Of a DNA stretch of 64,000 bases, positions 2,349-21,283 are shown piece after piece. Each line of letters begins with the position of its first letter. The first letter of the stretch is position 1. Origin of the DNA: an uncultured Clostridia bacterium. Lineage in GTDB: Bacteria; Bacillota; Clostridia; Christensenellales; Borkfalkiaceae. The DNA lies in assembly GCA_944336975.1 (NCBI GenBank), contig CALVLH010000004.1, positions 1 to 64,000 of the forward strand, written 5' to 3'. Under the pieces are notes generated by a model that was not told the DNA's origin, did no database searches, and worked only from the letters and a program-made list of their open reading frames with translations. The position numbers and the translations under genes are program-made.

Positions 2349-2984
2349 ATGGCAAATCAGACAAAGTTCATAACGTCGCACAGAAGCCGCGTAAAAAGAG
2401 CAAATGAGGCACGGGCGCGGAGTCCTGAAAAAATCAGTATATTTGATCGGGAGGCCTATGTCGAATTTTATTTGCTGGAAGACATTGTCCGCCTTTACAA
2501 GTACCGCCTCGAAAGGGAACAGAAAAAGGTAGTGGAAACGCGGCCGGGACGTATCGCCAAGGAGCGCAACATCAGGAAGTTCATGGCAATCATAAATGTG
2601 TTTACGGCGGCGGCGGAAATCGCGTGGGGCGAGATTGATTCCGGAAACTATTCTTTGGTATGGAAGAGCATCCCGGAGAGCGCGCTCATGCTTGCGGCAA
2701 ACAGCGTGAAACATTTGCCCAGATTGTGTTCTATCGGGACGGCTCTGTTGAAAGTGCTTTCGGACGAATCGTTGAGTGCAGAGCAAAGCGTTGTCGAGTT
2801 CGATGAGGCGATGGATAGGCTCGAAGATCACGAGGCCAATGTGCGCACGGTAAAAGGGTTGCCTTCGCCCGCCGAGGTGGAAGCGATCATTAGAGAGGCG
2901 AATTCGGTGATTGCCGAGGCAGAGGCCTTCGGTAAGTCAAAGACGCGGGTCGATCCGATTTCTAAAATCAGCGATAACGTTTAA
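2349..2984 (+). CDS. Helical protein, possible ESCRT-III-like subunit
   Basis: A 211-residue, predominantly helical protein with a basic N terminus (residues 8-28 hold eight Arg/Lys), no signal peptide and no membrane segment. It is the first gene of the operon, with an AAAGGAG ribosome site 8 bases before the ATG. Residues about 105-165 follow a hydrophobic spacing similar to the neighbouring ESCRT-III-like protein: compare LPRLCSIGTALLKVLSDES here with STLPGAITACKGLLAES there, each followed by an amphipathic helix. A basic first helix and a long helical hairpin are ESCRT-III traits, so it may be a diverged second subunit. That assignment is inference; a structure comparison would decide it. 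Confidence 0.5.
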   Translation: MANQTKFITSHRSRVKRANEARARSPEKISIFDREAYVEFYLLEDIVRLYKYRLEREQKKVVETRPGRIAKERNIRKFMAIINVFTAAAEIAWGEIDSGNYSLVWKSIPESALMLAANSVKHLPRLCSIGTALLKVLSDESLSAEQSVVEFDEAMDRLEDHEANVRTVKGLPSPAEVEAIIREANSVIAEAEAFGKSKTRVDPISKISDNV

Positions 2985-3017
2985 TCGTTCAAATATATTT
3001 GATAAGGAGAAAACAAA

Positions 3018-3641
3018 ATGGCTAAAAAAAGCAATGACGAAAAAATTTTAAACGCACTTGACGCATTAGACGCTTCTATGCGGCAACTTCGCAAGTTCGG
3101 AGCCACATACGATACGCATATAGACAATGCGGCGTTGCGCGGCGACGATGCACGCGCCAGGAAGCTGATCAAACAAAAAATAGGCGTATATGCGCTTGCC
3201 GATCAGCTTTCTACACTTAAAAGCAACATTGAACTTGGCGCCTATACCGCAAAAGTCATGTCCGATCTCAGTACGCTCCCCGGTGCGATAACCGCATGCA
3301 AAGGGTTGCTTGCCGAATCGCCCAACTTTAAAAAACTCGGCGACAGTATCAAACGTATCTTTAAGGATATGCAGAAGCCTGAAGCGGAAATTTCCAGACT
3401 CAACGATATTCTTGACGATGTTCTTTCGCCCGGGCAGGAAAGTACGCTTACAAGCAGACTCGACGGCGCGGATGCGATCGAGGATTCGGATCAGTTTAAG
3501 GCGGAATATGCGTCTATGGTCGAAAGGCTCAAGGGAAAAGTCGCTTCGGAGCCCGTGACAAAGCCTGCATCCGATGCGGTCGATGCGACCGGCGACATCG
3601 ATTACGGAACCTTAATCGAAGAGGAAAACAAGAAGAAGTAA
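3018..3641 (+). CDS. ESCRT-III/Snf7-like helical protein
   Basis: A 207-residue soluble helical protein. Residues 8-30 form a basic amphipathic helix, residues 38-100 a long helical hairpin (ALRGDDARARKLIKQK, then LSTLKSNIELGAYTAKVM) and residues 105-137 helices ending in acidic EISRLNDILDDVL. This order and spacing resemble CHMP/Vps2-class ESCRT-III proteins, which polymerise on membranes and are remodelled by Vps4. A disordered Ala/Asp/Pro linker leads to a C-terminal motif DIDYGTLIEE (193-202), placed where ESCRT-III proteins carry MIT-interacting motifs; a near copy lies in the protease two genes on. The next gene, 9 bases away, is a Vps4-type ATPase. The family call rests on pattern and context, not on a database match; a PspA/Vipp1-like or unrelated coiled-coil protein is the alternative. 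Confidence 0.6.
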   Translation: MAKKSNDEKILNALDALDASMRQLRKFGATYDTHIDNAALRGDDARARKLIKQKIGVYALADQLSTLKSNIELGAYTAKVMSDLSTLPGAITACKGLLAESPNFKKLGDSIKRIFKDMQKPEAEISRLNDILDDVLSPGQESTLTSRLDGADAIEDSDQFKAEYASMVERLKGKVASEPVTKPASDAVDATGDIDYGTLIEEENKKK

Positions 3642-3650
3642 AGGTTTATC

Positions 3651-4865
3651 ATGGCAGAAGCAAGTATGATAGGGGTATTTAATGCCAAAGCAAGCGCATT
3701 TAACAAGGCATTAAGCGAAAACGATGCGGAATCGATAAGTGAGATCGGGGCAGAAATGCTTCGTATCGTACTTGATGAATGCGCTAAGCCCAATGTTACT
3801 ACCTCGCTGAAAGAGATTTATCGCAAACAAGGCATGGCGGTTGTGGCGCACCTTGCCAGATTGGCAAAATGTGCTCCCGATCCCGTTCGTTCCGACGGTG
3901 AAACGGGGAACGGAAGCGGCGGAAACGATCCGTACTATGTAACGAAGCAATGGTTTTCCGATGAAGTGCCAAAGCTCGGTTTTTCCGACATCATCGGCGT
4001 GCAGGAAGTGAAGGACGCCTTCATGACCGACATCGTGGCGCCGTTGCGTCCGGAGTTCAGGGACATTTACAGGAAGTTCAGAGGCGATCAGATGGGCACG
4101 CAGATCCTTCTCTACGGGCCTCCCGGGACGGGGAAAACGCACATCGTCAAGTCTCTGGCGGGCGCTTTGGGCTGTAAAATAGCGGTCGTGCAGACCAGCG
4201 AAGTGCTGGCAAGCGTCGTCGGAGTTGCGGAGAAAAACATCAGAGATGTGTTCAAACAGGCGTCAGAACTGGATCGTTGCATTATCTTTCTCGATGAGAT
4301 CGACAGCATTTGCAGCGATCGCAGTTCGGACGATTCGCGCAACACCAAGTCGATCTTGACCACCATGCTTACCTGCATGGACGGATTCATGAAAACAACG
4401 GAGGAAGGGCAGCTGAGGATCATCGTCGCCGCGACCAATCTTCCCTGGAAGCTCGACGCCGCGCTCAAAAGGGGCGGCAGGTTCGAAACGCAGATCTATG
4501 TGCCGCTTCCCGACGGGAACGCCAGACGGAAATTTCTCGAACTGTATTTTTCGAAGCTGCCGCATAGCGGCGACGTCACCGTCGATTGGCTCGCGGATAA
4601 GCTTTCCGGCTATTCCGGCGCCGATATTAAAGCCGTCGTCAAGCAGATCGCAAACTATCCGTTGCGCCGCGAGATACGCAATGTGTTGAACAAGTCCGTC
4701 GGAAAACCCCTCGGCGAAGTCATCACCAAGGCGGATTGCGAGAAGGTGTTAAACGATTATATCAATCCCGTTACATCCGAAATGCTTTTGCGTTTTGAGG
4801 CGTATGATCGCGGGATTTCTTACGAGGAACTTGTCAGACTGATAAGGGACAGAGATGACAAATAA
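3651..4865 (+). CDS. Vps4/katanin-type (meiotic clade) AAA+ ATPase with N-terminal MIT-like domain
   Basis: A 404-residue protein. Residues 1-75 are three helices resembling the MIT domain that Vps4 uses to grip ESCRT-III tails. A Gly/Asp linker leads to a single AAA+ module: entry motif FSDIIGVQEVKD (111-122), Walker A GPPGTGKT (156-163), Walker B IIFLDEID (211-218), sensor 1 ATN (261-263), arginine fingers around R274/R277 and sensor 2 GYSGAD (320-325). The C-terminal helices (ITKADCEKVLNDY and following) resemble the closing helix of Vps4, spastin and katanin. All catalytic residues are present, so it should be an active hexameric ATPase. The stop overlaps the next gene by 11 bases, implying coupled translation. 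Its likely substrate is the ESCRT-III-like protein just upstream. Confidence 0.8.
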   Translation: MAEASMIGVFNAKASAFNKALSENDAESISEIGAEMLRIVLDECAKPNVTTSLKEIYRKQGMAVVAHLARLAKCAPDPVRSDGETGNGSGGNDPYYVTKQWFSDEVPKLGFSDIIGVQEVKDAFMTDIVAPLRPEFRDIYRKFRGDQMGTQILLYGPPGTGKTHIVKSLAGALGCKIAVVQTSEVLASVVGVAEKNIRDVFKQASELDRCIIFLDEIDSICSDRSSDDSRNTKSILTTMLTCMDGFMKTTEEGQLRIIVAATNLPWKLDAALKRGGRFETQIYVPLPDGNARRKFLELYFSKLPHSGDVTVDWLADKLSGYSGADIKAVVKQIANYPLRREIRNVLNKSVGKPLGEVITKADCEKVLNDYINPVTSEMLLRFEAYDRGISYEELVRLIRDRDDK

Positions 4866-5925
4866 AGAGCAAATAATTTCTTACTATGTCAATGCGCGCG
4901 AGCAGGTTAAACTGAAAAATCCCCGGCTTGCGCGCAAATACGTTCTCATGATTCTCAACAGCGCCGTCAAAACGTATTATTCCGATACAATAAGCATACT
5001 TGCGAAGGCGAAACTTGCGGCGTTTCTTGACAAATGGTTGGCCGTTTCGCGCGATCTGTATGATGTCGGCGTAACGGAATACGTCAAAGAATGTTTTGGC
5101 TTGGAAACCCCAAAAAGGAATGTGCGTCCTGCGGGAAAGGTTGCGGCGGGAGAAACAGGCGAGTCAAAGCCCGATCAATCGTCGGGTGCAAAGGGGCGCA
5201 AAAAATCCGCTTCGCAAGTTTCGCCTGTCGGCAAGGGAAGTTCTTCCGTGGGCGGCGGCGATATAGATATATCAGGTCTTATTGATGAAACGGAATCGCA
5301 ACAGGGGTGGGGAGCCGAAATATTCGATGCAAATATTACCGCAGTAGTCCAAATTTCTGCTACCGGGGCGGACAGCGTTTCAAGCGGGACCGGCTTTATT
5401 ATATCAGATAAGGGATATATCCTTACGAACGATCATGTGGTGTTCGATGAGCGCAACGGAGTATATAACGCCAAGCTGAAGATGTCGCTTGCGGGTGAAA
5501 AAACGGCACATAAAATAGACGTAATAATATCGGATAAAAGTGTCGATGTAGCGCTGTGCAGATTTGATCCTTCCGATGTGCAGGGATTTACCGTGGTAAA
5601 GCTTGTCGCTGACTATTCCAAAATAAAACAGGGAGCGGATTGTCTTGTAATCGGAAATGCTTTCGGCATGGGGCTGGCGCCTTGTATGGGCAATATCAGG
5701 TTTACCAAAAACGATAACGGCAATCTTGTTTACACCATACCGTCAAATCCGGGGGATTCCGGCGGTCCGGTATTCAATAGAGCGGGTGAATGTATCGGCA
5801 TAAACAAGTCTAAAACGGTTGCGGTGAACGGAACAGTCGCAGAAGGATACGCGAACGCTACGCCGATGGATACCGTACGGAAACTATTGCAGAAATGGTG
5901 CGAGGCGAACCATATCATTTTATAA
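4855..5925 (+). CDS. Trypsin-like (S1C/HtrA-type) serine protease with N-terminal MIT-like domain
   Basis: A 356-residue protein without signal peptide or membrane helix, so probably cytosolic, unlike most HtrA proteases. Residues 1-85 are a helical module that aligns with the N terminus of the RuvB-like protein that follows (both end in FGL after a KxKL...W/Y..A..R pattern). A low-complexity linker (88-135) holds the acidic motif DIDISGLIDE (136-145), nearly the same as the C terminus of the ESCRT-III-like protein. The protease domain (155-350) has His194 (TNDHVV), Asp231 (DVALCRF) and Ser302 (NPGDSGGPV), a complete triad. No PDZ domain follows. In conflict systems such soluble trypsins often act as effectors or maturases released by an NTPase; that role here is inference. 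Confidence 0.85.
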   Translation: MTNKEQIISYYVNAREQVKLKNPRLARKYVLMILNSAVKTYYSDTISILAKAKLAAFLDKWLAVSRDLYDVGVTEYVKECFGLETPKRNVRPAGKVAAGETGESKPDQSSGAKGRKKSASQVSPVGKGSSSVGGGDIDISGLIDETESQQGWGAEIFDANITAVVQISATGADSVSSGTGFIISDKGYILTNDHVVFDERNGVYNAKLKMSLAGEKTAHKIDVIISDKSVDVALCRFDPSDVQGFTVVKLVADYSKIKQGADCLVIGNAFGMGLAPCMGNIRFTKNDNGNLVYTIPSNPGDSGGPVFNRAGECIGINKSKTVAVNGTVAEGYANATPMDTVRKLLQKWCEANHIIL

Positions 5926-5937
5926 CAGGAGCAAAGC

Positions 5938-7479
5938 ATGGAATTCAAAGACAGATTTGTTGAAAAGTATCGGATCGCTCTTCACGCAGCGCGCGACGGG
6001 GACACGGAAGGCGTTATAAACGGATTGTATGGATTATATTCCCTGTTTGAGGAGCAATACAAAAAGAATAACGGCGACAGTATCGTGGTAAAAGTCAAAC
6101 TCAGTTACTGGCAGGACGTATTCGGAAAATACATCGCCATTGCCCGCAAGTACGGGTTGAGCGACCGCAGGTTGCAAAAGCTTTTCGGGTTGGTGACCGA
6201 CGACGACATCCCTTCGTTTTCGGACATCATGCGCGGGAAGGCGGCGGACGACGGCGCTCGCGGCGAAAAAGCCCCCGTCGGGGGCGCTACCGAAAGGGGC
6301 GTTCCCGCGTTTGACGGGCTGATGCCTCCTTCGGAAGCGCAGAGCCCTGACGCGGGGGAAGAAAAGGGTCCGCCCGATACGGAAAAAGGCGATCCTTCCC
6401 TTCCGAGCCCGATCATTCCTTCCGAGGACGGCGTTCCGGACGCGCCTGCGGGCGGCGTTGCCGAGGCGGGGAAGGAGGGCGGCGGGCGGGATGTCCCTGC
6501 GTTTACGCCGCAGTCGCTCGGAGATTTCATCGGTCAGCAACATATCGTCAGCGTGATCATGAAGGAGATCGCCATAGCAAAAAACGAAGGGCGCAAGCAT
6601 CTCGATAACATTTTGCTTTTCGGTGCGCCCGGACTGGGCAAAACGACGTTGATGGAACTGATCGCAAAGGAACTCGGCGTGAAGTTCGAATTGCTGGACT
6701 GTTCTCAGTTCAGGAACAGTCAGCAATCGCTCAAAGCGCTTCAGAATTTCTTCATGCGCGTTGCCCGCGACAATGAACCGGTCGTCATCGCGCTCGACGA
6801 AGTCCACATGCTCAACAACGAACTGCAATCCAGTCTTTTGACGCTTCTCAACAGCAGGGTATATGTGTCGCCCCTCGACGTGAACGGTCAATGCAAGCGC
6901 ATCCCCATCGAGGAATTCACGTTTATCGCGGCGACGACGGACGACGATAAAGTGCTCGACACGATCAAAAACCGTTGCCTGCGGCTCAAATTCCAGATGG
7001 TCGACTATACCGCGGAGGAGTTGAAACGCATTTACAGGAACAAGGTGGCGGCAAAGGGGCTCACGATAAGCGAGGAAGCGATCGACGCCTGCGTCCCCAG
7101 GAGCAGAGGCGCGATCCGCTATGTCAACTCGATCGTCGAAGGTCTGAATACCGCTCTGTACAATAACGACGGCGTGAGGATGTCGACTCACATCGATTTG
7201 CAGACCGCTCTCGGGTATTTTGAAGCGAAAGGGATCGATCCCATCGGGTTGGAAGCCAAGGATCTTGAAATATTAAGGACAATTCAGGAAGATACGAGCG
7301 GAGCGATCAGTGCGGACGTGCTTTCCGCGAGAGTGGGGTTGGATACGCGCAAGTATTTGTCGGAATACGAACGGTATCTCATCAAGATCGGCTTTATTTC
7401 TGTAAGCGGCAGAGGCAGAAGCCTTACGGAAAAAGCGATAAAATATCTTAACGGAAGCGGTGAGAAGAAAGTGAAATGA
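5938..7479 (+). CDS. RuvB-family AAA+ ATPase with N-terminal MIT-like domain
   Basis: A 513-residue protein. Residues 1-85 are the same kind of helical module found in the adjacent protease. Residues 86-190 are a disordered Gly/Pro/Asp/Glu linker with three short hydrophobic motifs (IPSFSDIM at 91, VPAFDGLM at 122, VPAFTPQSL at 186). Residues 193-505 are RuvB-like: GDFIGQQHIV, Walker A GAPGLGKTT (229-237), Walker B VVIALDEVH (282-290), sensor 1 AATT (331-334), and a C-terminal winged helix with the family motif GLEAKDLEIL and a GRGRSLT turn. It is not the housekeeping RuvB: no ruvA or ruvC is near, and the N-terminal extension is foreign to that family. The ATPase appears intact. It probably acts as a second remodelling motor in the system. 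Confidence 0.8.
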   Translation: MEFKDRFVEKYRIALHAARDGDTEGVINGLYGLYSLFEEQYKKNNGDSIVVKVKLSYWQDVFGKYIAIARKYGLSDRRLQKLFGLVTDDDIPSFSDIMRGKAADDGARGEKAPVGGATERGVPAFDGLMPPSEAQSPDAGEEKGPPDTEKGDPSLPSPIIPSEDGVPDAPAGGVAEAGKEGGGRDVPAFTPQSLGDFIGQQHIVSVIMKEIAIAKNEGRKHLDNILLFGAPGLGKTTLMELIAKELGVKFELLDCSQFRNSQQSLKALQNFFMRVARDNEPVVIALDEVHMLNNELQSSLLTLLNSRVYVSPLDVNGQCKRIPIEEFTFIAATTDDDKVLDTIKNRCLRLKFQMVDYTAEELKRIYRNKVAAKGLTISEEAIDACVPRSRGAIRYVNSIVEGLNTALYNNDGVRMSTHIDLQTALGYFEAKGIDPIGLEAKDLEILRTIQEDTSGAISADVLSARVGLDTRKYLSEYERYLIKIGFISVSGRGRSLTEKAIKYLNGSGEKKVK

Positions 7480-8150
7480 CAAAGAAAGATTTATTGAAGA
7501 TGATCGACAAAAGCACGCTCAAAGTCGACAGCGAAAAGGCGTCGGTTTACGAGCGCTATTATCCTCAGATCAAAGCGATCTTATCTTCGGTGGAGGATAA
7601 CGTCGCGATCAACGATCTGAGCAGCCTGGACGAGTTTGTCGACGCGGATGATTTTGAAAATTACATCAAAGAACATGACGTCGCCGAGTTGGAAATGCGC
7701 TTTGCTCAGATGTGTGCACAGCTCGAAGTCTGGATCAAATATTGCGGCGTCGGCAGACGGATCGCCGATAAATATGAAACCGTCGGAAAGAAGATCGTCG
7801 ATACCTATAAGGCCGTCAGCGATAAAAAACATAAGCGCTATCTCGTATTGGGGATCATTACCGTTCTCTTCGCGGCCGCCGCGGCGACGTTCGCCATCCT
7901 CGAGATCTTCGAGGTGGTCGATTTCGGCGGAGAGATCGCAAGCGTCTGCGGCGTGATCGATTTCTTCAACGGTCTGGTGTTCTTCGTTTATGAGCGGAAT
8001 GAAGACCTGCGCTCGGAGTTGCTCAGCAAGGAAGCGGGTTCTTCTATCAGTGAAGGCAGAGTTACGGAAGAGTTTGAGCGGTATTCACAGAAAAATATAT
8101 TGATCGGTGTTGTGAACAAATATTACGATTACAAACGGATGCGATTATGA
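7476..8150 (+). CDS. Two-helix membrane protein of unknown function
   Basis: A 224-residue protein starting in an ATGA overlap with the RuvB-like gene. Residues 1-118 are an acidic then basic helical cytosolic part, residues about 121-143 and 151-172 are membrane helices, and the 50-residue tail is again charged and probably cytosolic. No family is recognised. It is the first clearly membrane-bound product of the operon and is a plausible anchor that brings the ESCRT-like and AAA+ proteins to the inner face of the membrane; that is inference from position and topology. Confidence 0.7.
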   Translation: MTKKDLLKMIDKSTLKVDSEKASVYERYYPQIKAILSSVEDNVAINDLSSLDEFVDADDFENYIKEHDVAELEMRFAQMCAQLEVWIKYCGVGRRIADKYETVGKKIVDTYKAVSDKKHKRYLVLGIITVLFAAAAATFAILEIFEVVDFGGEIASVCGVIDFFNGLVFFVYERNEDLRSELLSKEAGSSISEGRVTEEFERYSQKNILIGVVNKYYDYKRMRL

Positions 8151-8224
8151 TAACAGACGGATGATTGCATAACTTCCGCGCAGAATGACGCCGTTGGCAT
8201 GATTTTCGAGGGGGACAGATCGGA

Positions 8225-11200
8225 ATGAAAGAAAAAATCAAAGAAAAAGCGGCAACGCCCGCAGAGGACGCCGAAAAAGACAAATCTCTTGCTCGGGAAA
8301 AGAGGAAGCCGCATACTGCGGACGAGGTATACGGTAAAACATCCAATTGGCTGATAGGATTGTTAAATTTCTTTATCAGAAAGACCTATATGATCGATCA
8401 TGCCAGCTTCATAAAGGAGGCGGTCGATCTCGGCGTCGGAGATGCTTTTGAGAAGTATTATAACGGAATCGATGAGGGAGAAGAAGAGAACAGACAGTCC
8501 GTCATACTTCAAAAGTTACAAGAAATCGACGTGCCCGATCAAGGCGAGCGGAAGGAAGAAGTCAAAGAGCCCGATCGAGGCAATCCGAAAGAAGAAGCCC
8601 GGCAGAAGAAAAAGCTGGCTAGTATGAAGTATGTGTTGGTAAAATTGTGGGAAGCTACCGAAACGGCGAGAGAAGTCGCCGAAGAGGCGAGGGCAAACGC
8701 CGAACAGGACAGGTCGGATGTCGAAGCGGAGCCTCGGAGAGAGAAGAAATCGCTTTTCGGACGGTGGGAGGAGAAATTGATCGCTCGCGCCTATTTCAGG
8801 AAAGGCGTGGAGGTCCTGATCTCCCGCGTTCTGACCGAATGCGCGATCCCCTATTCTTCCAACCCCTATACAAAGTGCATCGACGAGCTTTATTGGTTGG
8901 CCGAGAAGCTGAAGACAGACAGCACGGGAGAGCCGAAACGCGTATTGAATACTCCGAAAGCGGACAAGACCTTTCAGTCATTGATCGAGATCTTGTTCCC
9001 CAAACCCGGTGCGACGCTGAGAGCGAAAAGTCTTATGGCAAGCTGCGGAAGCTTCAAGGAAGAAAAAAAGCGGCTCATCGAGTTCAGCAAACGGGCAAAA
9101 AGAGAATTCGTTTTTTTCATATCGGCCATATCGAGAAAAGGCGACAAGGAATACAGCACCGAATACCATGTCGCGAAAAAGCTGACCGAAGCTTTCAGAG
9201 CGCGCGGGATAAAATATTTTTGGTGGGAAGACGCCGCCGAGACAAAATTGTCGAAAAAGGGAAAAACGATCGGGGAGAAATTGCGACCGTCCACCAAAAT
9301 AGCGGCGGGGTTGGCGTTTTCGTCGGCGTTTATCGGTCTGGCGTTCGACGGCGCAGAGGAAGTGCGCGAGGAGGCAGGGAAATATGAATTTCCCTGCTTC
9401 GACAATGAAAATTTCAAATACGAAGCGGATGTGTTTTTGTCTCTGATGGGAGGCGGGCTGGACGGGAACGAGATCGAAAAGACGAAACCGGCGAGGGAGT
9501 TTACGAGGGAAATAGTCAGCGAGCAGAATTTTAAAAAATATGTGCCGCAGACCAGATGGTTCACGTTTTTTACCTACGGAGCCCCGCTCCATTATGAAAA
9601 ATATGCCTGCTTCGACAACCAGAACGAGAACAGACTGAATCAGGTCGCTTTGAAGGAAGGAGAGGACGACGTCATCGTCTTGGCTCAGCAGGTATACGAC
9701 AAGATCGTTGACCTCATCGCAAATAACGAAAAGCTGAGAAAATTATGCGGGATAAAAATGCAGGTTCCCGCAAAAATAAGGGGATCTCTCCGATACGTTT
9801 TCAGCGAGCAGAGGGAAAGCGAAAAGGAAGACGCGGCCGTAAGGGAGTTGTATCTTCCCTATAAGCCCTGCAAGAGAGACGACAAAACGACTTTAGCGAC
9901 GAGGAAAATAGACGTCCCCGAAGATATTGACTCGATCCCGTCCGATTACTTTTTTGAGTATGCCGTTACGGACGAATACGGCAATTCTGCCAAAGAGCAT
10001 TTCACCTTTTTCCCCGAAAGCTATTACGATAAGAACGGCGAATTGAAATGGCGCGTAAAAGCGGTCATCAAAGACTGGAACTATGCTTTTGTTGAGTTAT
10101 ACAAATCGACAGAAGCCGTTGCTTCGGCAGCTCCTGTCGCTTTGGATGAGCAGAAACGGGCGGAACTTGAGAAGAAGTATCCCCTTATCGCGTTCAGAAG
10201 CGCTTTCTCTTATCTTCTGAACAGGGACGAAGCGGTCGACAGAGTCGATTACGAGGAATATACGTCAAAGTCCAACAACAATCACTGCGCAATATGTATC
10301 GGGAGCGAGTCGCTCTTCGGGAGTGCATGGAACGGGATCGTCGGCAGAATAGAGATGTCGACCGCCCCTTTGAATGACGGAGCCGATCCGCCCAAAGGAG
10401 ACAAGATCTACTATTTTAATGTAGTTTTTGCGCCCAAGAAAATAGTACATTATAGTATCGAAAAAAGCAGGGACGGCGCTCATTCCGTATTCAGGATAAA
10501 CAGCGACATAAGCAACATAAAAAACATCAGAGTCAGAGTAACTTCGCACGGCAAGCGCCTGGCGAGATTTTCCTCCGATTCCGGCGTATTCGTCGGTTCG
10601 GTGGGGCAGCTCATGGCAAAACAAAGAGAGGGACAATTTTCTTCCGGTCAGAATTACAGCTTGCGCCCCTGCGACGGTTTCGAAAAGTACTATATTTTTC
10701 TTGATGACACGATATATGCGGAGAGAACGGGGGCGGGCAGGCGTGACAGAGCGGAGAAGGCGGTGCCGGAACGGCTTAAGCGATGCCCCTTCTGCGGCAG
10801 ATATTTGACGAGCGACAAAAAGCTTTCCGAACATGCCGACTACTGTTATCCGATCGTGGCCAAAAAGATCGGGGGACGTTATTATTGTCAGCATAATTTC
10901 GTGCACCAATACTGGAATGCGTCCGAAAGCGAAGCAAGCAAACTCATCGGCGAGATCGAAGACCTTTCATCCGTTCAGCTCAAGGACGAGAACAGGTTAT
11001 TGTTGCCGAGCGCGATCAAGAAAAATAAGGTCGTGATCGTTTCCGTCGTGGGCGTTACCCAGTCCGGCAAATCCACGTTTCTTTCCAGTTTGTTCCGAAC
11101 GGGCGCGGAAATACCCGATCTTCAGCAAATCGGGAACAAGCTGTATCCTTATGTCGGAAACGCGACCTTCTTCGGATTAAAATCGAAGGTCGTGACCAGC

Positions 11201-12007: not shown

Positions 12008-12031
12008 CGACGCATCTCTTCAGGGGGTAAT

Positions 12032-13777: not shown

Positions 13778-13795
13778 TCTGAGGAATGGGATACG

Positions 13796-14752
13796 GTGAA
13801 AAATATCTTCAACAAAAAAAGCAGCGGAGGGCGGTTTTATATCTGCCTTGCCGTCATATCCATGGCGATCGCGGTCATAAGCTGTTCGGTCGGCTGGTCG
13901 TTCGGCTACAAGACGGATTATGTGAACGAGGTCCGCATCACGGATGAGTCGGAGTTTATCGCCGCGCTGGAAAACAGTTCCGAGATCAAGAAACGGCGCG
14001 TATATTATCTCACCGAGAATATTACGCTGACGGTCTCTTCGCTGAAAAATAAGAAGTTCAGCTTTTACGGAAAATTGGACGGCGGGAAGGAAGGGCATTC
14101 CGTCACGATCGCGGCGGACGAGAGCGGGACGGAAGACCGCCTGACCGCGCCCATTTTCGAGACCGTGATGGCAGGCGCCGAGATCTGCGGGGTGCGCTTT
14201 ATCGTTCCCGACGGGACGGTCGTCGGCGGCGCGGACGGCAAAGACGGAACGGCGCTGATCGCAAAGACCAACAGCGGATACATCCACGATTGTTCGGTGG
14301 AAATATCGTGCGTCGAGATCGGCAAAGACGAAACGAAAGCCGCAGGGATGGTTGTGGAAAATTACGGAAAGATCGACGCCGTGGAGCTGTATATCGGAAA
14401 GGTGACCGAGGCGGAAGACTTTTCCGACGACACCGAAGAGTCTTCCCGCAGGGCGGAGAAGACCTGGAAATGTTATTTCGGCGGAGTCGCGACGATCAAT
14501 TGCGGGACGATAAGCAATGTGCGGGCAACGGTGGATTTCAGCGGATTGCAGATCTTGCACACGCAGATGGACGACGCAACGGTCGTAGACGCGTGGTTTG
14601 AAAACCGTTGGATCGGATTTATCTGCGGCATAAGCTCCGAGGCGGGATCGGCGGACGAGGCAGGCATATCGGAGATCGAACTGATAGCGGCGGAAGGCTA
14701 TTGGGACATTGCCGCCGATCACGATTGCTATTCGCCCGTATTGACGGATTGA
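13796..14752 (+). CDS. Membrane-anchored exported protein, right-handed beta-helix-like
   Basis: A 318-residue protein starting at GTG 13796, chosen because a TGAGGAATGGG ribosome site lies just upstream and the next residues form an uncleaved signal anchor (about 13-36). The rest is predicted outside the membrane and is rich in short beta strands with repeated Gly-Asn-hydrophobic turns (GKLDGGKEG, NSGYIHDCSVEI, NYGKIDAVELY, NCGTISNVRAT), the look of a pectate-lyase-type beta helix as in GLUG-like surface proteins. No catalytic motif is seen. It links the cytosolic part of the operon to the cell surface. Confidence 0.6.
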   Translation: MKNIFNKKSSGGRFYICLAVISMAIAVISCSVGWSFGYKTDYVNEVRITDESEFIAALENSSEIKKRRVYYLTENITLTVSSLKNKKFSFYGKLDGGKEGHSVTIAADESGTEDRLTAPIFETVMAGAEICGVRFIVPDGTVVGGADGKDGTALIAKTNSGYIHDCSVEISCVEIGKDETKAAGMVVENYGKIDAVELYIGKVTEAEDFSDDTEESSRRAEKTWKCYFGGVATINCGTISNVRATVDFSGLQILHTQMDDATVVDAWFENRWIGFICGISSEAGSADEAGISEIELIAAEGYWDIAADHDCYSPVLTD

Positions 14753-14828
14753 AACGGTCTGTCCGTCGGATCCCGTTGAGAAAAGACGTCTTATTTTACG
14801 GCGAAGATAATTAGGTCAGGTACGCAAG

Positions 14829-17800
14829 ATGAGTAAAAGCAAAAGAACAAATATCGGTTCCCAATGGTGCTTTTTTATATTCGTGTTAGTCGCAATCTCA
14901 TGTGCGACTGTTTTTGGTATCATCCGTTTGTTCCGGTTGCAGGATCATCTCACAAGCGTCCCCTCGATCGAGCTTACGTCCACGGATTATCAGATCCGTG
15001 AGGGCGACGAGGGCGAGATCTTTGCGACCTTGCTTTATTCCGACGGGCATACGGAGGAAGGGCGCTTCGAATTTGAAATTTTAGGCGAGAAGGAAGGCGC
15101 CGTGTCCATCGCCGACGGCGGGCAGGAGAGCGGCAGTTCGCACATCCGTTTTACGGCGGCCCCGCTCGCGGAAACTTCGGCCGACGGATGCGACGTAAGC
15201 ATACGGGTGAGTTGCATAAGCGTTCCCGAAGTACAGCCCGCGGTGATCAATATTCAGGTCATACCGAGAGAATCCGCATTCATCGATTTTGAATATTACA
15301 GATACAATGCGGAGACGGGCGACGTCGAGCGATGCGTCGCCGAAGACGTCGCGATCCGAAACGGACAGCAACTGCAGAGCGCGATCGACTTCGACGCGGA
15401 TGAAATGGGCCCGTATCGTTTTTCGGGGTGGTATGTGGCGGACGGCGCCGACGGCGTGACGGATATAAAATTCGACCTCGACGCGGTTTATTACAGCGAA
15501 AACTGGGCAGAAAAGCTGACGCTTCGGGCAAGGTATGAGGCGGACGTCGTATTCGATTACGATAAACTCACCCCGGATGAGGTCAAGCGCGAAAGGGAGA
15601 CCGTCCGATTGGCGTACGGTGACGACATCGGGGATTTTGTCCCCGCTCCGGAAGGAGCGGCGGGATGGGATTTCGCAGGCTGGGTAAATCCCGAAGGGGT
15701 TGCGATCGATTTCGGGAACGATCTGTTTGAGGAGGGCTATGCGGACGCCGAAGAAGCGGTCGTATATTCCTCGTGGAGCACCCGAGTCAGCATCGATACC
15801 GTACTCGACGCGGAAGAACGGATAGAAGTCAGATACGGCTATCCCATAGGATATTCGCACGATTATTCCGACGGCGCACGGTTCGAAGGGCTGTGGTATT
15901 CGGAAGAAGACGGTTCCGAAAAACAGGTCATCGCTTCGGACGCGATCTATACGTTCGGCGCAAACATGTCTTTTACTGCGGAATTCAGCTATCCCGTAAG
16001 GCTCTATGATTGGGCGGCGGAAAGCGAGGTGGAAACCGATCTGCGCATCGTTTACGGAGAAAGCCTGTCGTATTCGGGAAGAAATCTGCCTTTGTTGCAA
16101 GAACAAAACGGTTGGACGTTTGTCGGCTGGAATACGGCGGCGGACGGCGGCGGAACAGAATTCGATGAATATACTTCATATACCGAGACGAAGGCGCTTG
16201 CGCTGTATTCGGTCAGGAAGGGAGAGCTGGATTTATACCAAGAATTGGACGGAAACGGAAACGCGAGCGCGTCGTCGCAGAAACTCGGCGTCGTTTACGG
16301 TTCCGCGCTGAATTTGCCGCGGGATCTCACGGCAGGAAGCTGGACGTTTTTCGGTTGGTTCACCGAAGAGGGCGGTCAGGGCGAGCGGGCGTCTGACGAG
16401 CAGAGCTATAAAGGGGAGGGAAGCGGCTCCCTGTATGCGGCGTGGCAGACGGAACTTGCGTTCGATTATATCTTCCCCGTCGCGTCCGAAACGGACGACA
16501 CGCTCACCGTGTTTTATAAAGGACAAGTAGAGTATCCTCAACCGATATTTGTCAACGGAGCCCGTTTTGCAGGGTGGTATTATCTCGATAACGGCGAGCA
16601 AATCTATATCGACACGCACGCGGCATATACTTTGCAAGCGGACTTAGCGCTTACGGCAGAAATAGAATTTACCATTGATCTGTACGATATGAGCGAGTCG
16701 ACAGGCAGTTCCGATGAGATAGAAGACCTGTATGATTTTTATGGCACGACGAACGTTTTGTATAACAAGACGCTCAGCGCATCGGGAAATACGCTCGACG
16801 TGCTTCCCGATAAGGCGGGCTGGGAGTTTGCGGGTTGGTATACTCGCACTTCGTCCGACGAAATAGAATTGTTCGACGAGCAGACGGTATTCTCGGACAA
16901 ATATGTCGCCATGACGGAAAACGGCACGTTAAGTCTGTATTCGGGCAGGACGACGTCGATGACGCTGTTCCGCGAACTCGACGAGTCGGGCAATTCGGAC
17001 GCAGGGAATACGGATACGCTGAGCGTTGTCTATGGGTTTGAATTGGAATTGCCGGACGGGATCTCGGCAGGAGAATGGACGTTCGGCGGGTGGTATACTC
17101 AGGCGGGCGGCGCAGGCGAGAAGATGGAGAACACGTCCTGCTATGTCGGCGCGGCCGATGTCGTTTTGTATGCGAAATGGAGTGCGGACGCGCGGATCTG
17201 TCTTACGTTCGCGGACCGAACGACGGGCGCGTTCGACGGGCAAAAGATCGCCGTCACCTACAACGCTCCGATCTACGGTTTGCCCGCGGAGCTGGTATAT
17301 ACGGCGAACGGCGGGAAATTCTTCGGCTGGTATACGGAGAAAAGCGCGTACGGATCGGAACTCGTCAACGGGCAGACGGTCTATAACGTGTCGTCTCTCA
17401 GCATTTACGATGCGGTGCGGTTTACTCTTACCTTCGTCTACACCGACGGCGCGCAGGGAAACAATCCCAACGCGATGGATTTTGTCTACGGCCGCGTGAT
17501 CGGCGAGGACGGCGGTTTGCCCGTGCCTCAGATGGACGGATGGAATTTCGAGGGTTGGTATACTCAGTCCGGCGTGAGTTTCGGCGACGGAGATATTTAT
17601 GCGCTCAGCGGAAATTACACCGTCTATGACCGTTGGAACAAGAAGGTCTCTTACGTCGATATTACCGGCGCGATGACCGATGAAATGTCGGAACAGACGA
17701 TATATTACGGCAACGAAACGGAGCCTTTGCTCGGATTGAGTTACGGGTCGTGGACGTTCGGCGGCTGGTATACCGAAGAATACGGGAACGGCGAACGGTT

Positions 17801-19619
17801 GACCGATACTTCGCAACTGACGGAGGCGGATACCGCTCTGTATGCGTACTGGTATATCGAAAGCGTGCCGCTCATATTCCACAACGACGACGTCAGCGAT
17901 ACCGAGATCGGACCGATCGTTTTCGGGAAGACGATCGAAGAGTCTACGGAGAAATCTTTGCCCGATCTGGATACGGGCGTCGGGAAAGCGCCCCCCGGCT
18001 TCATCGATGCCGTGGGCTGGTTCGTCAACGGCACTTTCGAAATGGATTGGCGGATAACCGATCTCGATCGGATATACCCCGCAGAGATGACCAGCATCGA
18101 ACTCAAGTGGAATCCCAATACCTTTAACGTCACATTTGATTTCGGATTCGGCAGCGAGACGTATCAGATCGCGTTCGACTCAAAAGTGATAACCGATGCG
18201 AACACGGGGGGCAGCATCGTATCTGTTCCCGTGCCCGAAAAGGAGGGGCACTTCCTCTACGGATATTATTGCGAAAGCGAAGGCGGAAAAGTGTTTTACT
18301 TTTTGCGCGGCGACGACGGCAAAATCGAGTGCGTCAAGGGATGGGACATGGACCATGACGCAACGCTTACGGCAGAGTGGCGGAAGGAGAGCTACCGCGT
18401 AACGTTCGACAGCAACGGCGGATCGGCGGCAGATAGCCTGGAAGTGGAATTCGGACAAGAATGCCCCACGCTTCCCGTTCCCCAAAGAACGGGGTATGTC
18501 TTCGGCGGTTGGTATATGTCCGAAGCAAACGATAACGGGACGGGCACGAAGGTAAGCGTCGGCGATATGATAGGCGATTGGAGCGATATTTCGCATACCG
18601 ATGAGAACGGCGATGTCATTGTGACGCTCTATGCCAAGTGGGAAATCATCGCCATCAGCGAAGTCGTCGCGTCTCCCGGGAGCCTCAATGGTCTGGGTGG
18701 AACGCAGAATGTTACGATCAGCGTAACGAGTTCCGTTTCCGGCTATGTCGGGAACTATGAATATCGGAATACCGGCAGTTCGACGCCCGGCGTAAGCGTC
18801 GGAGGGGGCGGGAACTCAAACGTTTTCAGCGTTCGGAAAACGGAGAACAGCAAAAACGGTACCATTTATATCACCGTTACGGACAGAAATAATGGGGCGC
18901 AGAAGGTCGTGGGAATACCATATTCGACCACAGGCAGCCATTGTTTCGTGAAAGGCAGTTTGATTACCCTTGCAGACGGAAGTTCGGAAAAAGTGGAAAA
19001 TTTGCATTGCGGCGATGAGATCATGGTATTCAACCATTATACCGGCGAACTGGACAGCGCTCCCGTATCTTATATCTTCTATGGCGGATACGCTCATTGG
19101 GAAATCCTTAACCTGAATTTCTCCGACGGAACGGTTTTGCAGGTGATCGAGGGGCATGGCTTATTCGATAAACAGCTTAACGAATATGTAGTCATTACAA
19201 AGGAGAATGTAGAAAACCATATAGGGCATCTGTTCAGCAAAATAGATACCGGCGGCGACGCGTCGGCCGTGGAATGGGTGGAATTGGTTTCCTATTCGCT
19301 GACGGAAGAATATACCGAAAGCTATAGCATTCTTTCCGCCGTACATATCAACCACATCGTAAACGGATTGCTCGCCGTGACCGATGATATTGAAGGACTG
19401 TACAACATTTTCGAATTGGACGACGACATGACGTATGACAAGGAGAAAATGCAGGCGGATATTGAAAAATACGGCACGTTCACGTACGAGGAGTGGTCGG
19501 ATAAGGTCACATACGAGCAGTTCGTTGCGTTTGGCGGCGAGTATCTGAAAGTGTCCGTCGGAAAAGGTCTGACGACCATGGAAAGACTCATGGAGCTCAT
19601 CGACGTATTCCTGTCGTGA
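14829..19619 (+). CDS. Giant InlB B-repeat surface protein with C-terminal Hint domain
   Basis: A 1596-residue protein with an N-terminal membrane anchor (about 13-35). Residues about 190-1290 carry about a dozen Listeria-Bacteroides (InlB B-type) repeats, each with a core such as WTFGGWYT, WEFAGWYT or GKFFGWYT; these are extracellular adhesive beta folds. A Bacteroidetes-like Ig segment follows. At Cys1372 a Hint (hedgehog/intein) domain begins (CFVKGSLITL, then EGHGLFD near 1441, ending HINHIVNGLLA near 1506-1516), which could self-cleave before Cys1372. A conserved 75-residue tail (to 1596) follows, with no toxin domain. No sorting motif or second anchor is present, so Hint chemistry might release or attach the repeat region. 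It ends the structural part of the operon. Confidence 0.8.
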   Translation: MSKSKRTNIGSQWCFFIFVLVAISCATVFGIIRLFRLQDHLTSVPSIELTSTDYQIREGDEGEIFATLLYSDGHTEEGRFEFEILGEKEGAVSIADGGQESGSSHIRFTAAPLAETSADGCDVSIRVSCISVPEVQPAVINIQVIPRESAFIDFEYYRYNAETGDVERCVAEDVAIRNGQQLQSAIDFDADEMGPYRFSGWYVADGADGVTDIKFDLDAVYYSENWAEKLTLRARYEADVVFDYDKLTPDEVKRERETVRLAYGDDIGDFVPAPEGAAGWDFAGWVNPEGVAIDFGNDLFEEGYADAEEAVVYSSWSTRVSIDTVLDAEERIEVRYGYPIGYSHDYSDGARFEGLWYSEEDGSEKQVIASDAIYTFGANMSFTAEFSYPVRLYDWAAESEVETDLRIVYGESLSYSGRNLPLLQEQNGWTFVGWNTAADGGGTEFDEYTSYTETKALALYSVRKGELDLYQELDGNGNASASSQKLGVVYGSALNLPRDLTAGSWTFFGWFTEEGGQGERASDEQSYKGEGSGSLYAAWQTELAFDYIFPVASETDDTLTVFYKGQVEYPQPIFVNGARFAGWYYLDNGEQIYIDTHAAYTLQADLALTAEIEFTIDLYDMSESTGSSDEIEDLYDFYGTTNVLYNKTLSASGNTLDVLPDKAGWEFAGWYTRTSSDEIELFDEQTVFSDKYVAMTENGTLSLYSGRTTSMTLFRELDESGNSDAGNTDTLSVVYGFELELPDGISAGEWTFGGWYTQAGGAGEKMENTSCYVGAADVVLYAKWSADARICLTFADRTTGAFDGQKIAVTYNAPIYGLPAELVYTANGGKFFGWYTEKSAYGSELVNGQTVYNVSSLSIYDAVRFTLTFVYTDGAQGNNPNAMDFVYGRVIGEDGGLPVPQMDGWNFEGWYTQSGVSFGDGDIYALSGNYTVYDRWNKKVSYVDITGAMTDEMSEQTIYYGNETEPLLGLSYGSWTFGGWYTEEYGNGERLTDTSQLTEADTALYAYWYIESVPLIFHNDDVSDTEIGPIVFGKTIEESTEKSLPDLDTGVGKAPPGFIDAVGWFVNGTFEMDWRITDLDRIYPAEMTSIELKWNPNTFNVTFDFGFGSETYQIAFDSKVITDANTGGSIVSVPVPEKEGHFLYGYYCESEGGKVFYFLRGDDGKIECVKGWDMDHDATLTAEWRKESYRVTFDSNGGSAADSLEVEFGQECPTLPVPQRTGYVFGGWYMSEANDNGTGTKVSVGDMIGDWSDISHTDENGDVIVTLYAKWEIIAISEVVASPGSLNGLGGTQNVTISVTSSVSGYVGNYEYRNTGSSTPGVSVGGGGNSNVFSVRKTENSKNGTIYITVTDRNNGAQKVVGIPYSTTGSHCFVKGSLITLADGSSEKVENLHCGDEIMVFNHYTGELDSAPVSYIFYGGYAHWEILNLNFSDGTVLQVIEGHGLFDKQLNEYVVITKENVENHIGHLFSKIDTGGDASAVEWVELVSYSLTEEYTESYSILSAVHINHIVNGLLAVTDDIEGLYNIFELDDDMTYDKEKMQADIEKYGTFTYEEWSDKVTYEQFVAFGGEYLKVSVGKGLTTMERLMELIDVFLS

Positions 19620-19635
19620 GGATGAGCCCGAAAGG

Positions 19636-19677
19636 GCGGGACGTCTTATCCGTCGTCGTACGGATAAGACGTCCCGC
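19636..19677. promoter_or_regulatory. Perfect 17-bp inverted repeat before the XRE-type gene
   Basis: GCGGGACGTCTTATCCG (19636-19652) is exactly complementary to 19661-19677 across an eight-base loop. There is no T tract after it, so it is not a standard terminator. It lies between the Hint protein and the regulator gene and could be an operator, an mRNA stabiliser or a transcript-processing site. Confidence 0.5.
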
Positions 19678-19741
19678 TCGGGATCGGGGCGAATGGAGCG
19701 CGGAAAGACAGCTGTTCGGATCGCCCGAAAGAGGATCGGTT

Positions 19742-20563
19742 ATGAAAGAAATTTTACTTACGAACAGACATTCTGTCCCGCAGGACGCTTGTGCGCTTGA
19801 CAGAGCGGCTTGCGGTATCATCGCATGGTTGGACGGCGAGCACGGAGAAGAAGCGGTCCTGCGCCGCGCGATCGGCGCGGCGCTCGGCAGGTGTGCGGAA
19901 GCGGGAAAGAACATCGCATTCGACGTGCGGGAATTCGGGGAATTGGGGTATAATTTCTCTTATCTTGAAAGCGTATTGACGGATGTCGCCTGTGAGGAAG
20001 GAAGGACAAGCGCAGATATGATTCATCGCGCGGTGTTTTACAACGTCATGGTAGATATGGACAAAGCTGAAGCTTTCGAAATGAAGGTTTCTCGTCCATA
20101 CAAAGAAGAAGCCAATCTTTCTTTTATTGCAAGGGGAGATATGCTTTCCGCTAAACTCAAATCTTACCTTTCGGCGCATGAGCCCATACCGTTCGGAACC
20201 TATTTGATGTCGCTTTCCGAGAAAAAGGGCATACAAACCCGCAGTCAAATTTGTATGGTTTCAGGAATTTCAAGATATACTATGTCCAAGGTGGTAAACG
20301 GGATTTCAAGGCCTTCAAAAGATTCCCTTGCCGCGCTTGCCATAGGGTTGAAACTTACTTTACAAGAGGCGGAAGAGCTGTGCAATCAAGTTGGATACCA
20401 TCTTGGCGATATGGATTTGGTCGACAGGGCGGTCCGATTCTTTATCGGTGAAAAAATTTATGATATTGATATGGTAAATTACTGTTTATATAGTCTTGGG
20501 ATTGAACCGCTTGGAGAAAAGCCTCGAGATATTGCAATTGATCGATATGTCGATATTGAATAA
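19742..20563 (+). CDS. XRE-family regulator closing the ESCRT-like operon
   Basis: A 273-residue protein. The ATG at 19742 is preferred over the longer open frame from 19616 because the upstream stretch covers the inverted repeat, and AAAGAGG precedes this ATG. Residues 1-140 are of unknown fold. Residues about 155-225 form a helix-turn-helix (SQICMVSGISRYTMSKVVNG) of the XRE type, followed by the tail seen in a common Clostridia XRE subgroup (LTLQEAEELCNQVGYHLG, then a long helix and a closing YDIDMVNYCLYSLGIEPLG). It is followed by a strong terminator. It may control the operon, but a toxin- or sensor-like role for the N-terminal half is possible. Confidence 0.7.
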   Translation: MKEILLTNRHSVPQDACALDRAACGIIAWLDGEHGEEAVLRRAIGAALGRCAEAGKNIAFDVREFGELGYNFSYLESVLTDVACEEGRTSADMIHRAVFYNVMVDMDKAEAFEMKVSRPYKEEANLSFIARGDMLSAKLKSYLSAHEPIPFGTYLMSLSEKKGIQTRSQICMVSGISRYTMSKVVNGISRPSKDSLAALAIGLKLTLQEAEELCNQVGYHLGDMDLVDRAVRFFIGEKIYDIDMVNYCLYSLGIEPLGEKPRDIAIDRYVDIE

Positions 20564-20580
20564 ATCAAGAATATAATTTT

Positions 20581-20624
20581 AAGGTTGCTTTGCAGCGTTA
20601 ACTGTAAAGCAACCTTTTTTTTTT
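20581..20624 (+). terminator. Rho-independent terminator ending the ESCRT-like operon
   Basis: AAGGTTGCTTT pairs with AAAGCAACCTT and runs into ten T residues. It marks the end of the 18 kb operon. The gap from here to 20980 is AT-rich, with only a weak 60-codon open frame (20714-20896) that has no ribosome site and no family resemblance; apart from the promoter at 20936 nothing else is recognised. Confidence 0.9.
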
Positions 20625-20941: not shown

Positions 20942-20980
20942 GAAAACAAGACAAGAATTAAAACACATATGGAGTTTAAT

Positions 20981-21283
20981 ATGAACGGAAAAGAAAAAAG
21001 CAACATAAGAGACATTTTGTTTGATAAAAACAACACATCAGAAATTGTTCTGGTAAATGAAAACGGACAGGAACTTGTCTTCAGACAAGTATATGCGGCT
21101 AAGGTCGAAGGCAGAATGTATTGCATTTTGGCTCCTTTCAGAGATAATACTTCACAAGGAGAACGAGTTTCGTTTCTTTTTGAGGTTTCGGAGGAAGGGA
21201 CATTGTCCGTTGTTAAAGATCATGCTTTTTCAAAGTACTTATTTTCGGAATATTACAAATCATTAAAAACGAAGGAGGAATAA
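20981..21283 (+). CDS. DUF1292-like small protein
   Basis: A 100-residue protein. The ATG at 20981 is preferred over the one at 20969 because GGAG lies six bases before it. The sequence follows the DUF1292 pattern: IVLVNENGQELVFRQVYAAK, then EGRMYCILAPF, then an acidic helix before KSL. The biochemical role of DUF1292 proteins is unknown. It ends one base before the AAA+/protease fusion and is surely cotranscribed with it, perhaps as an adaptor; that is inference. Confidence 0.6.
   Translation: MNGKEKSNIRDILFDKNNTSEIVLVNENGQELVFRQVYAAKVEGRMYCILAPFRDNTSQGERVSFLFEVSEEGTLSVVKDHAFSKYLFSEYYKSLKTKEE

Follow-up and report, generated by a model that had tools for sequence, protein, structure and literature searches.

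ESCRT-III proteins with recruited MIT cofactors are generally regarded as belonging to archaeal and eukaryotic cell biology. In archaea, the CdvB/CdvC pair has a role in division and is not known to have a protease or RuvB-like partner. In the human case, the ESCRT-III protein IST1 recruits calpain-7, an MIT protease, and this interaction is described as able to activate proteolysis (PMC10586806). In bacteria, a survey of Snf7 and PspA proteins found their genes beside classical AAA+ genes, and ATP-dependent membrane remodelling was suggested (PMC11237479). Here, we describe an operon of eleven genes, designated g1 to g11 in order along positions 2349–20563, in a 64,000-nucleotide stretch of DNA from an uncultured Clostridia bacterium (this whole stretch is referred to as the window; it is contig C4 of a 1.72-Mb genome in 29 contigs, 93.7% complete). 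The core of this operon encodes an ESCRT-III-like protein (g2), an AAA+ ATPase (g3), a protease (g4) and a RuvB-like ATPase (g5), and we propose, giving the idea roughly an even chance, that it is a mobile membrane-surveillance defence system in which a polymer scaffold would recruit and activate the protease.

The human IST1–calpain-7–VPS4 set (PMC10586806) resembles the operon in joining an ESCRT-III-type protein with a conserved C-terminal motif, an AAA+ ATPase and a protease with an N-terminal MIT-like three-helix adaptor. The operon differs in being bacterial and a single unit, in having a trypsin-type serine protease instead of a calpain cysteine protease, and in carrying interchangeable cargo; it also has a second adaptor protein, bearing the RuvB-like ATPase, its AAA+ protein lies outside the Vps4 clade, and binding of the tail is a candidate interaction. 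The neighbourhoods of PMC11237479 share with it the Snf7-type gene next to a classical AAA+ gene, but the main text of that survey makes no mention of RuvB, protease, peptidase, trypsin, 'TIR domain' or leucine-rich; the survey also reports bacterial Vps4-like genes, with snf7 displaced there by another gene. As in archaeal CdvB/CdvC, the ESCRT-III-like and AAA+ genes adjoin, and the CdvC model scores 153.6 bits on g3, although the CDC48 (174.5) and FtsH (167.4) models score higher and all three remain far below their cut-offs. Nucleotide-dependent conflict systems described in PMC7159879 are similar in having a relative of the g7 family (DO-GTPase2), trypsin and TIR domains, membrane proteins and a constant core with variable parts, but ESCRT, Vps4 and RuvB do not occur in that paper, GAP1 was not found in our operon and the cores are different. 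Finally, Bacillus subtilis DynA is a membrane-remodelling protein reported to protect against phage (PMC8844932), but it is a single protein of the dynamin superfamily. No prior description of this gene set was found among the matches listed from the open-licence PMC papers, to which the search was confined (subscription papers were not searched); the author of a first-pass annotation of the same DNA knew of no named system with these parts.

The ESCRT-III-Like Protein and Its AAA+ Partner

Gene g2 (3018–3641; like the other operon genes, the promoter-like site and the flanking hairpins, on the + strand) encodes a protein of 207 amino acids (aa), for which an ESCRT-III fold is predicted. This assignment, already made in the first-pass annotation, is supported by profile searches and structural modelling. 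The Snf7 profile matches 47 of the 52 aligned g2 members at E <= 0.01 (best 5e-8), including the window copy, and the two other families listed for these proteins match one member each. In the AF2 model (pLDDT 72.5), helices are predicted at residues 6–40, 44–84, 87–98, 105–136, 158–175 and 196–206, an order that fits the ESCRT-III hallmark as given in PMC8281802 (a hairpin of a1 and a2/a3, an elbow, a4 and a5), with a predicted tail helix in addition. The first nine Foldseek ranks are all ESCRT-III proteins (prob 0.82–1.00; E 4.3e-3 to 5.3e-2). The PspA_IM30 profile is missing both from the g2 matches, listed to E 1, and from those of the 52 members, listed to E 0.01. Several observations weigh against this fold assignment and speak for an unrelated helical bundle with a coincidental likeness to ESCRT: the window copy falls below the Snf7 cut-off (E 2.5e-4; 21.2 bits, cut-off 27.3), the pTM of the model (0.48) and the Foldseek TM-scores (0.28–0.41 by query) are low, other long helical proteins tie with ESCRT-III in the VIA comparison, and a profile search of PDB sequences with g2 returned no ESCRT-III chain. 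However, considering the contrast between 47 Snf7 matches and single matches to two other families, as well as the uniform leading Foldseek ranks, we regard such a coincidence as highly improbable.

The first-pass annotation had taken the product of g3 (3651–4865, 404 aa; N-domain 3651–3926, AAA domain 4104–4508) for a Vps4-type ATPase. It is a classical AAA+ protein (PF00004, E 6.4e-37; AAA_lid_3, E 1e-8) with Walker motifs present in the window copy, and among the phmmer alignments listed it scores 115–132 bits per domain with domains of the CDC48 type. In a 23-row tree with long branches, whose Vps4 references all came from one search with yeast Vps4, g3 stands apart as a clade of its own (100/100), as do the eight Vps4 rows (99/99), and the sequences of CDC48 type cluster together (92/89); a smaller earlier tree had left the position of g3 unresolved. 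The Vps4 beta domain insert is absent from g3 in the alignment, and pore loop 1 reads VVG instead of the WMG of Vps4, the pore-loop aromatic residue being absent. Because of its own clade, the missing beta domain and the VVG loop, we refer to g3 as the AAA+ partner, and its identification as Vps4 is rejected. In profile comparisons, among them hhalign with the MIT domain of yeast Vps4 and with a profile of 117 MIT sequences, the N-domain of g3 did not match MIT, nor was it significantly related to the N-domains of g4 and g5. Two local resemblances to Vps4 noticed by eye were also discarded: the C-terminus, compared with the Vps4 C-terminal helix, received no support from hhalign (2.8%, 18 columns), and the Vps4-like stretch ATNLPWxLD adjoins a GG that is not Vps4-like. 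PADLOC matches of g3 to IetA were confined to the AAA domain and were dismissed as generic.

The conserved first core gene, g1 (2349–2984), encodes a helical-looking protein of 211 aa. A DUF3857 match at residues 134–200 (26.3 bits, above the cut-off of 24.6) may be spurious. The candidate role of a second ESCRT-III protein found no support, a profile comparison of g1 with g2 giving no significant link, and PADLOC matches to JetB (E about 1e-3) were set aside as generic. Two g1 relatives each are present upstream of g2 in loci L020, L022, L025 and L038.

A Common Adaptor and a Shared Short Motif

Gene g4 (4855–5925, 356 aa) encodes a trypsin-like, HtrA-type serine protease (Trypsin_2, E 1.2e-20, residues 178–316; DegP/HtrA models also match), as had been anticipated under the name of an S1C/trypsin-type protease. 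The TNDHV, DVAL and GDSGG motifs that contain the His, Asp and Ser residues are present in the window copy; the His motif and GDSG[GA] are found in all 25 g4 copies compared, and the Asp motif D[VL]AL is detected by regular expression (regex) in 17 of the 25, the window included. In front of the protease domain, residues 1–85 form an MIT-type three-helix bundle in the predicted structure (adaptor at 4855–5094; model pLDDT 90.8), with MIT or MIT-like structures accounting for 24 of the 50 listed Foldseek rows. At the sequence level, hhalign of these residues against yeast Vps4 MIT and the 117-sequence MIT profile gave 0.8%, no MIT was found in Pfam up to E 10 or among PDB sequences, and PDB profile searches with three N-domain alignments, together with hhalign, were all negative. 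Because no sequence similarity to MIT is detectable, we use only the term MIT-like; the resemblance is structural only and belongs to the predicted model.

The same adaptor appears in g5 (5938–7479, 513 aa), where it matches that of g4 (hhalign 95%, E 3.9e-8, 87 columns) and is followed by a RuvB-like AAA+ ATPase with a winged helix (RuvB_N, E 4.9e-18; RuvB_C, E 3.8e-13) whose Walker motifs are present in the window copy. With the curated RuvB model, whose cut-off is 299 bits, g5 scores 136, whereas the genome's own RuvB, on contig C6, reaches 459 bits, which indicates that g5 is an extra, diverged RuvB relative; the RuvB-like gene of the first-pass annotation is thus retained as a protein distinct from that RuvB.

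The C-terminal tail of g2 (TGDIDYGTLIEEENKKK, 3588–3638, overlapping the predicted helix 196–206) is a candidate MIT-interacting motif. Its pattern, TGDIDYxGIIxEENKKK, has a mean identity of 0.80 compared with 0.52 in the variable linker before it, and the same pattern recurs in g4, where the linker joins the adaptor to the protease domain (DIDISGLIDE, 5260–5289), and in many g5 linkers. A single regex, composed after the motif had been seen in g2, g4 and g5, matched 24 of 25 g2, 22 of 25 g4, 10 of 22 g5, 2 of 24 g3, none of 27 g1 and 4 of 202 other proteins, the residue-shuffle expectations being 0.29, 0.28, 0.91, 0.47, 0.35 and 4.16, respectively. Since the loci are related, these counts are not independent events; what matters is the presence of the motif in three different proteins. 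It is absent from g5 of the window, and in the divergent type II operons (L015 in G029, L050 in G499) a related g2 tail is kept and the g4 motif is absent. The adaptor common to the protease and the RuvB-like protein, the shared short motif and the mobility of the operon are all points that the first-pass annotation did not contain.

Conservation, Distribution and Mobility

The order and strand of g2-g3-g4-g5 are kept in 24 further loci as far as the contigs reach (BLAST and gene calls), the single exception being one locus without g3, while three contigs end before g5. Such recurrence means that the core order is not due to chance, and the conservation of gene order expected in the first-pass annotation is borne out. 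A scan across named genomes yielded 24 loci in records labelled Clostridia, Acholeplasmatales, Anaeroplasma, Anaeroplasmataceae, Mollicutes and Bacilli. Detailed comparison covered 25 loci (the window, G009, G029 and 22 named ones; G016 is outside this count but has the same core), in which relatives of g1 are present in 23, g3 in 24, g4 in 25 and g5 in 22, the three without g5 stopping at a contig end. Where g5 is present, 10 of 22 loci have one to three extra genes between it and g4, but the window has no such gene.

Two variants of this arrangement were seen. Locus L030 (and L052, G428) has g1, g2, g4 and g5 without the AAA+ gene and lies near a coupling-protein gene cluster. Genome G499 holds two versions, L050 (contig C8) and L051 (contig C4), one of type I and one, L050, of the divergent type II; in type II loci a different helical gene, not detectably g2-like, precedes g2, and in L050 the core is followed by a gene that weakly matches DO-GTPase1 (E 0.015).

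The distribution is patchy. Within the genus of the window genome, g2 was found in 9 of 101 genomes, the window genome included, and a class-wide search returned 3 of 391 genomes, namely the window genome and two matches of 40–41 residues (19.7 bits) that were counted as noise. In a tree of joined g2-g5 sequences with 25 rows, the nearest row to the window is L016 (a Clostridia record), and these two group with four Acholeplasmatales-type loci (100/100), apart from seven other operons of the window genus; a single clade for that genus is rejected (p-AU 1.6e-46). This topology shows horizontal transfer of the operon, which has passed between classes.

Integrase or conjugation-type genes lie beside the core in 9 of the 25 loci. 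A tyrosine-recombinase (integrase) gene is located directly upstream of g1 in five of them (L018, L019, L020, L023 and L031, the last with the order tRNA-Arg, integrase, g1), and a signature scan of 34 sequences identified these five and none in the window. A cluster with a TraG/TraD-type coupling protein of type IV secretion systems is found near the core in the other four (L022, L028, L030 and L036). One might suppose from this that the core serves the element that carries it, for instance in DNA transfer control, entry exclusion or membrane partition, with the RuvB-like ATPase, whose winged helix is kept in g5, acting on the element's DNA. However, the coupling-protein cluster is confined to those 4 of 25 loci, none of the 10 downstream window proteins scanned is a transfer protein, and the cargo is more variable than a transfer role would seem to need, so that we hold this function to be distinctly unlikely.

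The clusters themselves contain a recurrent block, composed of a ClpP-like gene, an unknown 540-aa gene, a TraG/TraD-type coupling protein and an FtsK-gamma protein, parts of which occur at L036 5694–11010, L028 3142–8687, L030 13889–17207 and L022 1792–8277; the domains, including the FtsK-gamma and ClpP matches, were tested in L036. No attachment-site repeats were found next to tRNA genes in the window, L030, L031 or L036, none of 18 pattern matches in viral contigs was confirmed, and a plasmid search with g3 gave matches all under 60% identity, which among the matches listed were mostly FtsH-type.

Variable Cargo Genes

The order g1-g8 recurs by BLAST only in L018 (an Anaeroplasma record), and only there do the window g6-g8 have counterparts in matching order. 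What follows g5 is therefore interpreted as interchangeable cargo, not all of it belonging to the conserved unit. Among 26 large cargo proteins chosen from the compared loci, BspA-type leucine-rich repeats (LRR_5) were detected in 20, TIR_2 in 5, Flg_new in 4 and zinc ribbons in a few, and small two-transmembrane (two-TM) proteins recur beside them. In the window, g6 (7476–8150, 224 aa) is such a protein, with two hydrophobic segments and a weak likeness to SLATT_1 (E 0.0053; 16.7 bits, cut-off 41). A common design was noticed in large proteins of five loci (L020 6500–9754, L022 17719–20574, L028 13422–16187, L014 4519–7587 and L035 11075–13812), in which a TIR-type region that keeps TPWVxNE is followed by BspA-type leucine-rich repeats (LRRs) and, in some, zinc ribbons; by a simple scan they have no TM segments, save a marginal one in L020, and they look like cytosolic sensor-effectors.

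Such variation bears on whether the operon might be an envelope-stress or membrane-repair machine without any part in immunity, in which the polymer would patch membrane like PspA/Vipp1 and ESCRT-III while the protease and ATPases clear damaged proteins. The HtrA/DegP-type protease and the two-TM partner proteins would suit that role, as would the membrane role of the superfamily described in PMC8281802 and PMC11237479. On the other hand, the operon is patchy and horizontally exchanged, and its TIR and LRR cargo differs between related loci. No repair system that includes a RuvB-like ATPase is known to us, and we consider repair rather unlikely, though worth keeping in mind, as the function of this operon.

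The large g7 protein (8225–12007) combines a CxxC motif of the zinc-binding type with a GTPase region at its C-terminus, the profile matches of the latter lying below cut-off (MMR_HSR1, E 0.0029; DO-GTPase2, E 0.0043); for DO-GTPase2 its L018 relative reaches 28.9 bits (cut-off 27) and the window copy 17.2. It had been called a TIR-GTPase protein, of which the weakly DO-GTPase2-related GTPase part holds, but the TIR-like stretch at about 9092–9394 was seen by eye only: no TIR model matches g7, although TIR_2 occurs in other cargo proteins as noted, and an iterative TIR search took in six proteins without including it. The product of g8 (12032–13777, 581 aa) has three C-terminal TM segments and is related to an L018 gene (BLAST), without a useful Pfam match. 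The GAP1-like module mentioned in the first-pass annotation was not recovered, as no GAP1 model is listed for g8 up to E 1, nor up to E 10 for g8 halves, L018:13280-14700 or L021:17886-19643.

The membrane and surface proteins of the first-pass annotation are confirmed by TM segments, which include an N-terminal one in g9 (13796–14752, 318 aa), and by the repeats of g10 (14829–19619), a surface-type protein of 1596 aa with an N-terminal TM segment and eight Flg_new stretches (E 3.6e-44). A Hint-like autoprocessing sequence (CFVKGSLITLADGSSEKVENLHCGD...) was observed at its C-terminus (window about 18933–19172), where the Hint model matches only weakly (E 0.075). It is cargo of the window copy and not a conserved part of the machine; BLAST against the other loci gave g10 only a short repeat match, in L023. 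The lack of counterparts argues against a role as a bacterial ESCRT in membrane budding or cutting and vesicle release, with the giant surface protein as cargo, an idea to which the predicted ESCRT-III fold and the adjoining AAA+ gene would lend themselves. Considering also that g3 is not a member of the Vps4 clade and that 92 of the 101 genomes of the genus have no g2, membrane fission seems very unlikely to be the function. The last gene, g11 (19616–20563), encodes a probable regulator with a Cro/C1-type helix-turn-helix (HTH_26, E 0.0077, below cut-off); its GTG start at 19616 is doubtful, with in-frame ATGs 2 and 42 codons further in, and relatives are found near the core in L014, L028, L029, L030 and L036.

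Operon Layout and Neighbouring Genes

All eleven open reading frames lie on the + strand, with intergenic distances of -11 to +76 bases. Terminator-like hairpins are present upstream of the operon (2012–2044, 15-pair stem with 10 G-C pairs and a T run) and downstream of g11 (20581–20616, 15-pair stem, T8), and these have the longest stems among the 36 terminator-like sites listed in the window (24.8 in shuffled sequences). The same-strand array of overlapping or nearly touching genes between two strong terminator-like hairpins, described before as ending in one strong terminator, is confirmed as real. The single strong promoter that had been placed in front of it corresponds to a promoter-like site at 2135–2163 (TTGCAA-17-TATAAT with a TG, i.e. 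an extended -10), a consensus match that is weak evidence when taken alone because 23 such sites were observed compared with 18.3 in shuffles.

A tRNA-Leu gene lies 2 kb upstream in the window, and a small protein encoded upstream of the operon at 753–1250, which starts MLMKVCFIGHRT, appears SLOG-like by eye. Downstream, a 104-aa protein (20969–21283) precedes a chimeric protein of 953 aa (21285–24146) with an N-terminal AAA_2 domain followed by FtsH-type AAA and M41 peptidase domains. Matches to this chimera at E 1e-60 were found in 3 of 25 genomes, and it also adjoins the ESCRT operon in G009 (L014).

Proposed Mechanism and Implications

A constant core with swappable cargo, patchiness, mobility and the presence of TIR and protease domains together fit a conflict, i.e. 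defence, system like those in PMC7159879, here with an ESCRT-III-like protein at its centre, and a role of the operon in defence is inferred on these grounds. The earlier picture of an ESCRT-like membrane-remodelling or defence operon is accordingly narrowed: its ESCRT-III, protease and RuvB-like components and its gene order stand, while Vps4, GAP1 and the TIR domain of g7 are not supported. The order of the genes, their families, the predicted folds, the kept motif, the scattered occurrence and the transfer are shown here; beyond them, a defence mechanism might run as follows. A variable membrane or cytosolic sensor would detect an intruder or an insult to the membrane, candidates being the two-TM anchors and the LRR, TIR and zinc-ribbon proteins, together with the GTPase and surface proteins in the window copy. 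As its fold suggests, g2 would then polymerise on the inner face of the membrane, and its conserved tails, to judge from the shared motif and adaptor, may dock the MIT-like adaptors of g4 and g5, which the linker motifs of g4 and many g5 proteins could hold idle until the polymer tails outcompete them. The recruitment of calpain-7 by IST1 (PMC10586806) is the nearest working parallel to this step. Crowded g4 would cleave its substrates, g5 would work on DNA or protein at the membrane, and the cell or the intruder would be arrested. By analogy to VPS4, g3 would finally take the polymer apart and reset the system.

More specifically, the filament may be a signalling scaffold, a bacterial counterpart of the inflammasome, in which docking of MIT to the tail motif brings in a protease together with a DNA-type motor, both commanded by swappable LRR, TIR and GTPase sensors; we offer this tentatively and rate its chance at somewhat below even. 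If it is true, the recruitment logic of ESCRT would be a horizontally traded immunity cassette in bacteria, and the MIT-to-tail docking code, so far a matter of archaea and eukaryotes, would extend to bacteria, where it would serve in conflict and not in division. The origin of docking in the ESCRT style, both its time and its manner, would become open to testing, and the filament-activated protease would stand as a principle of defence.

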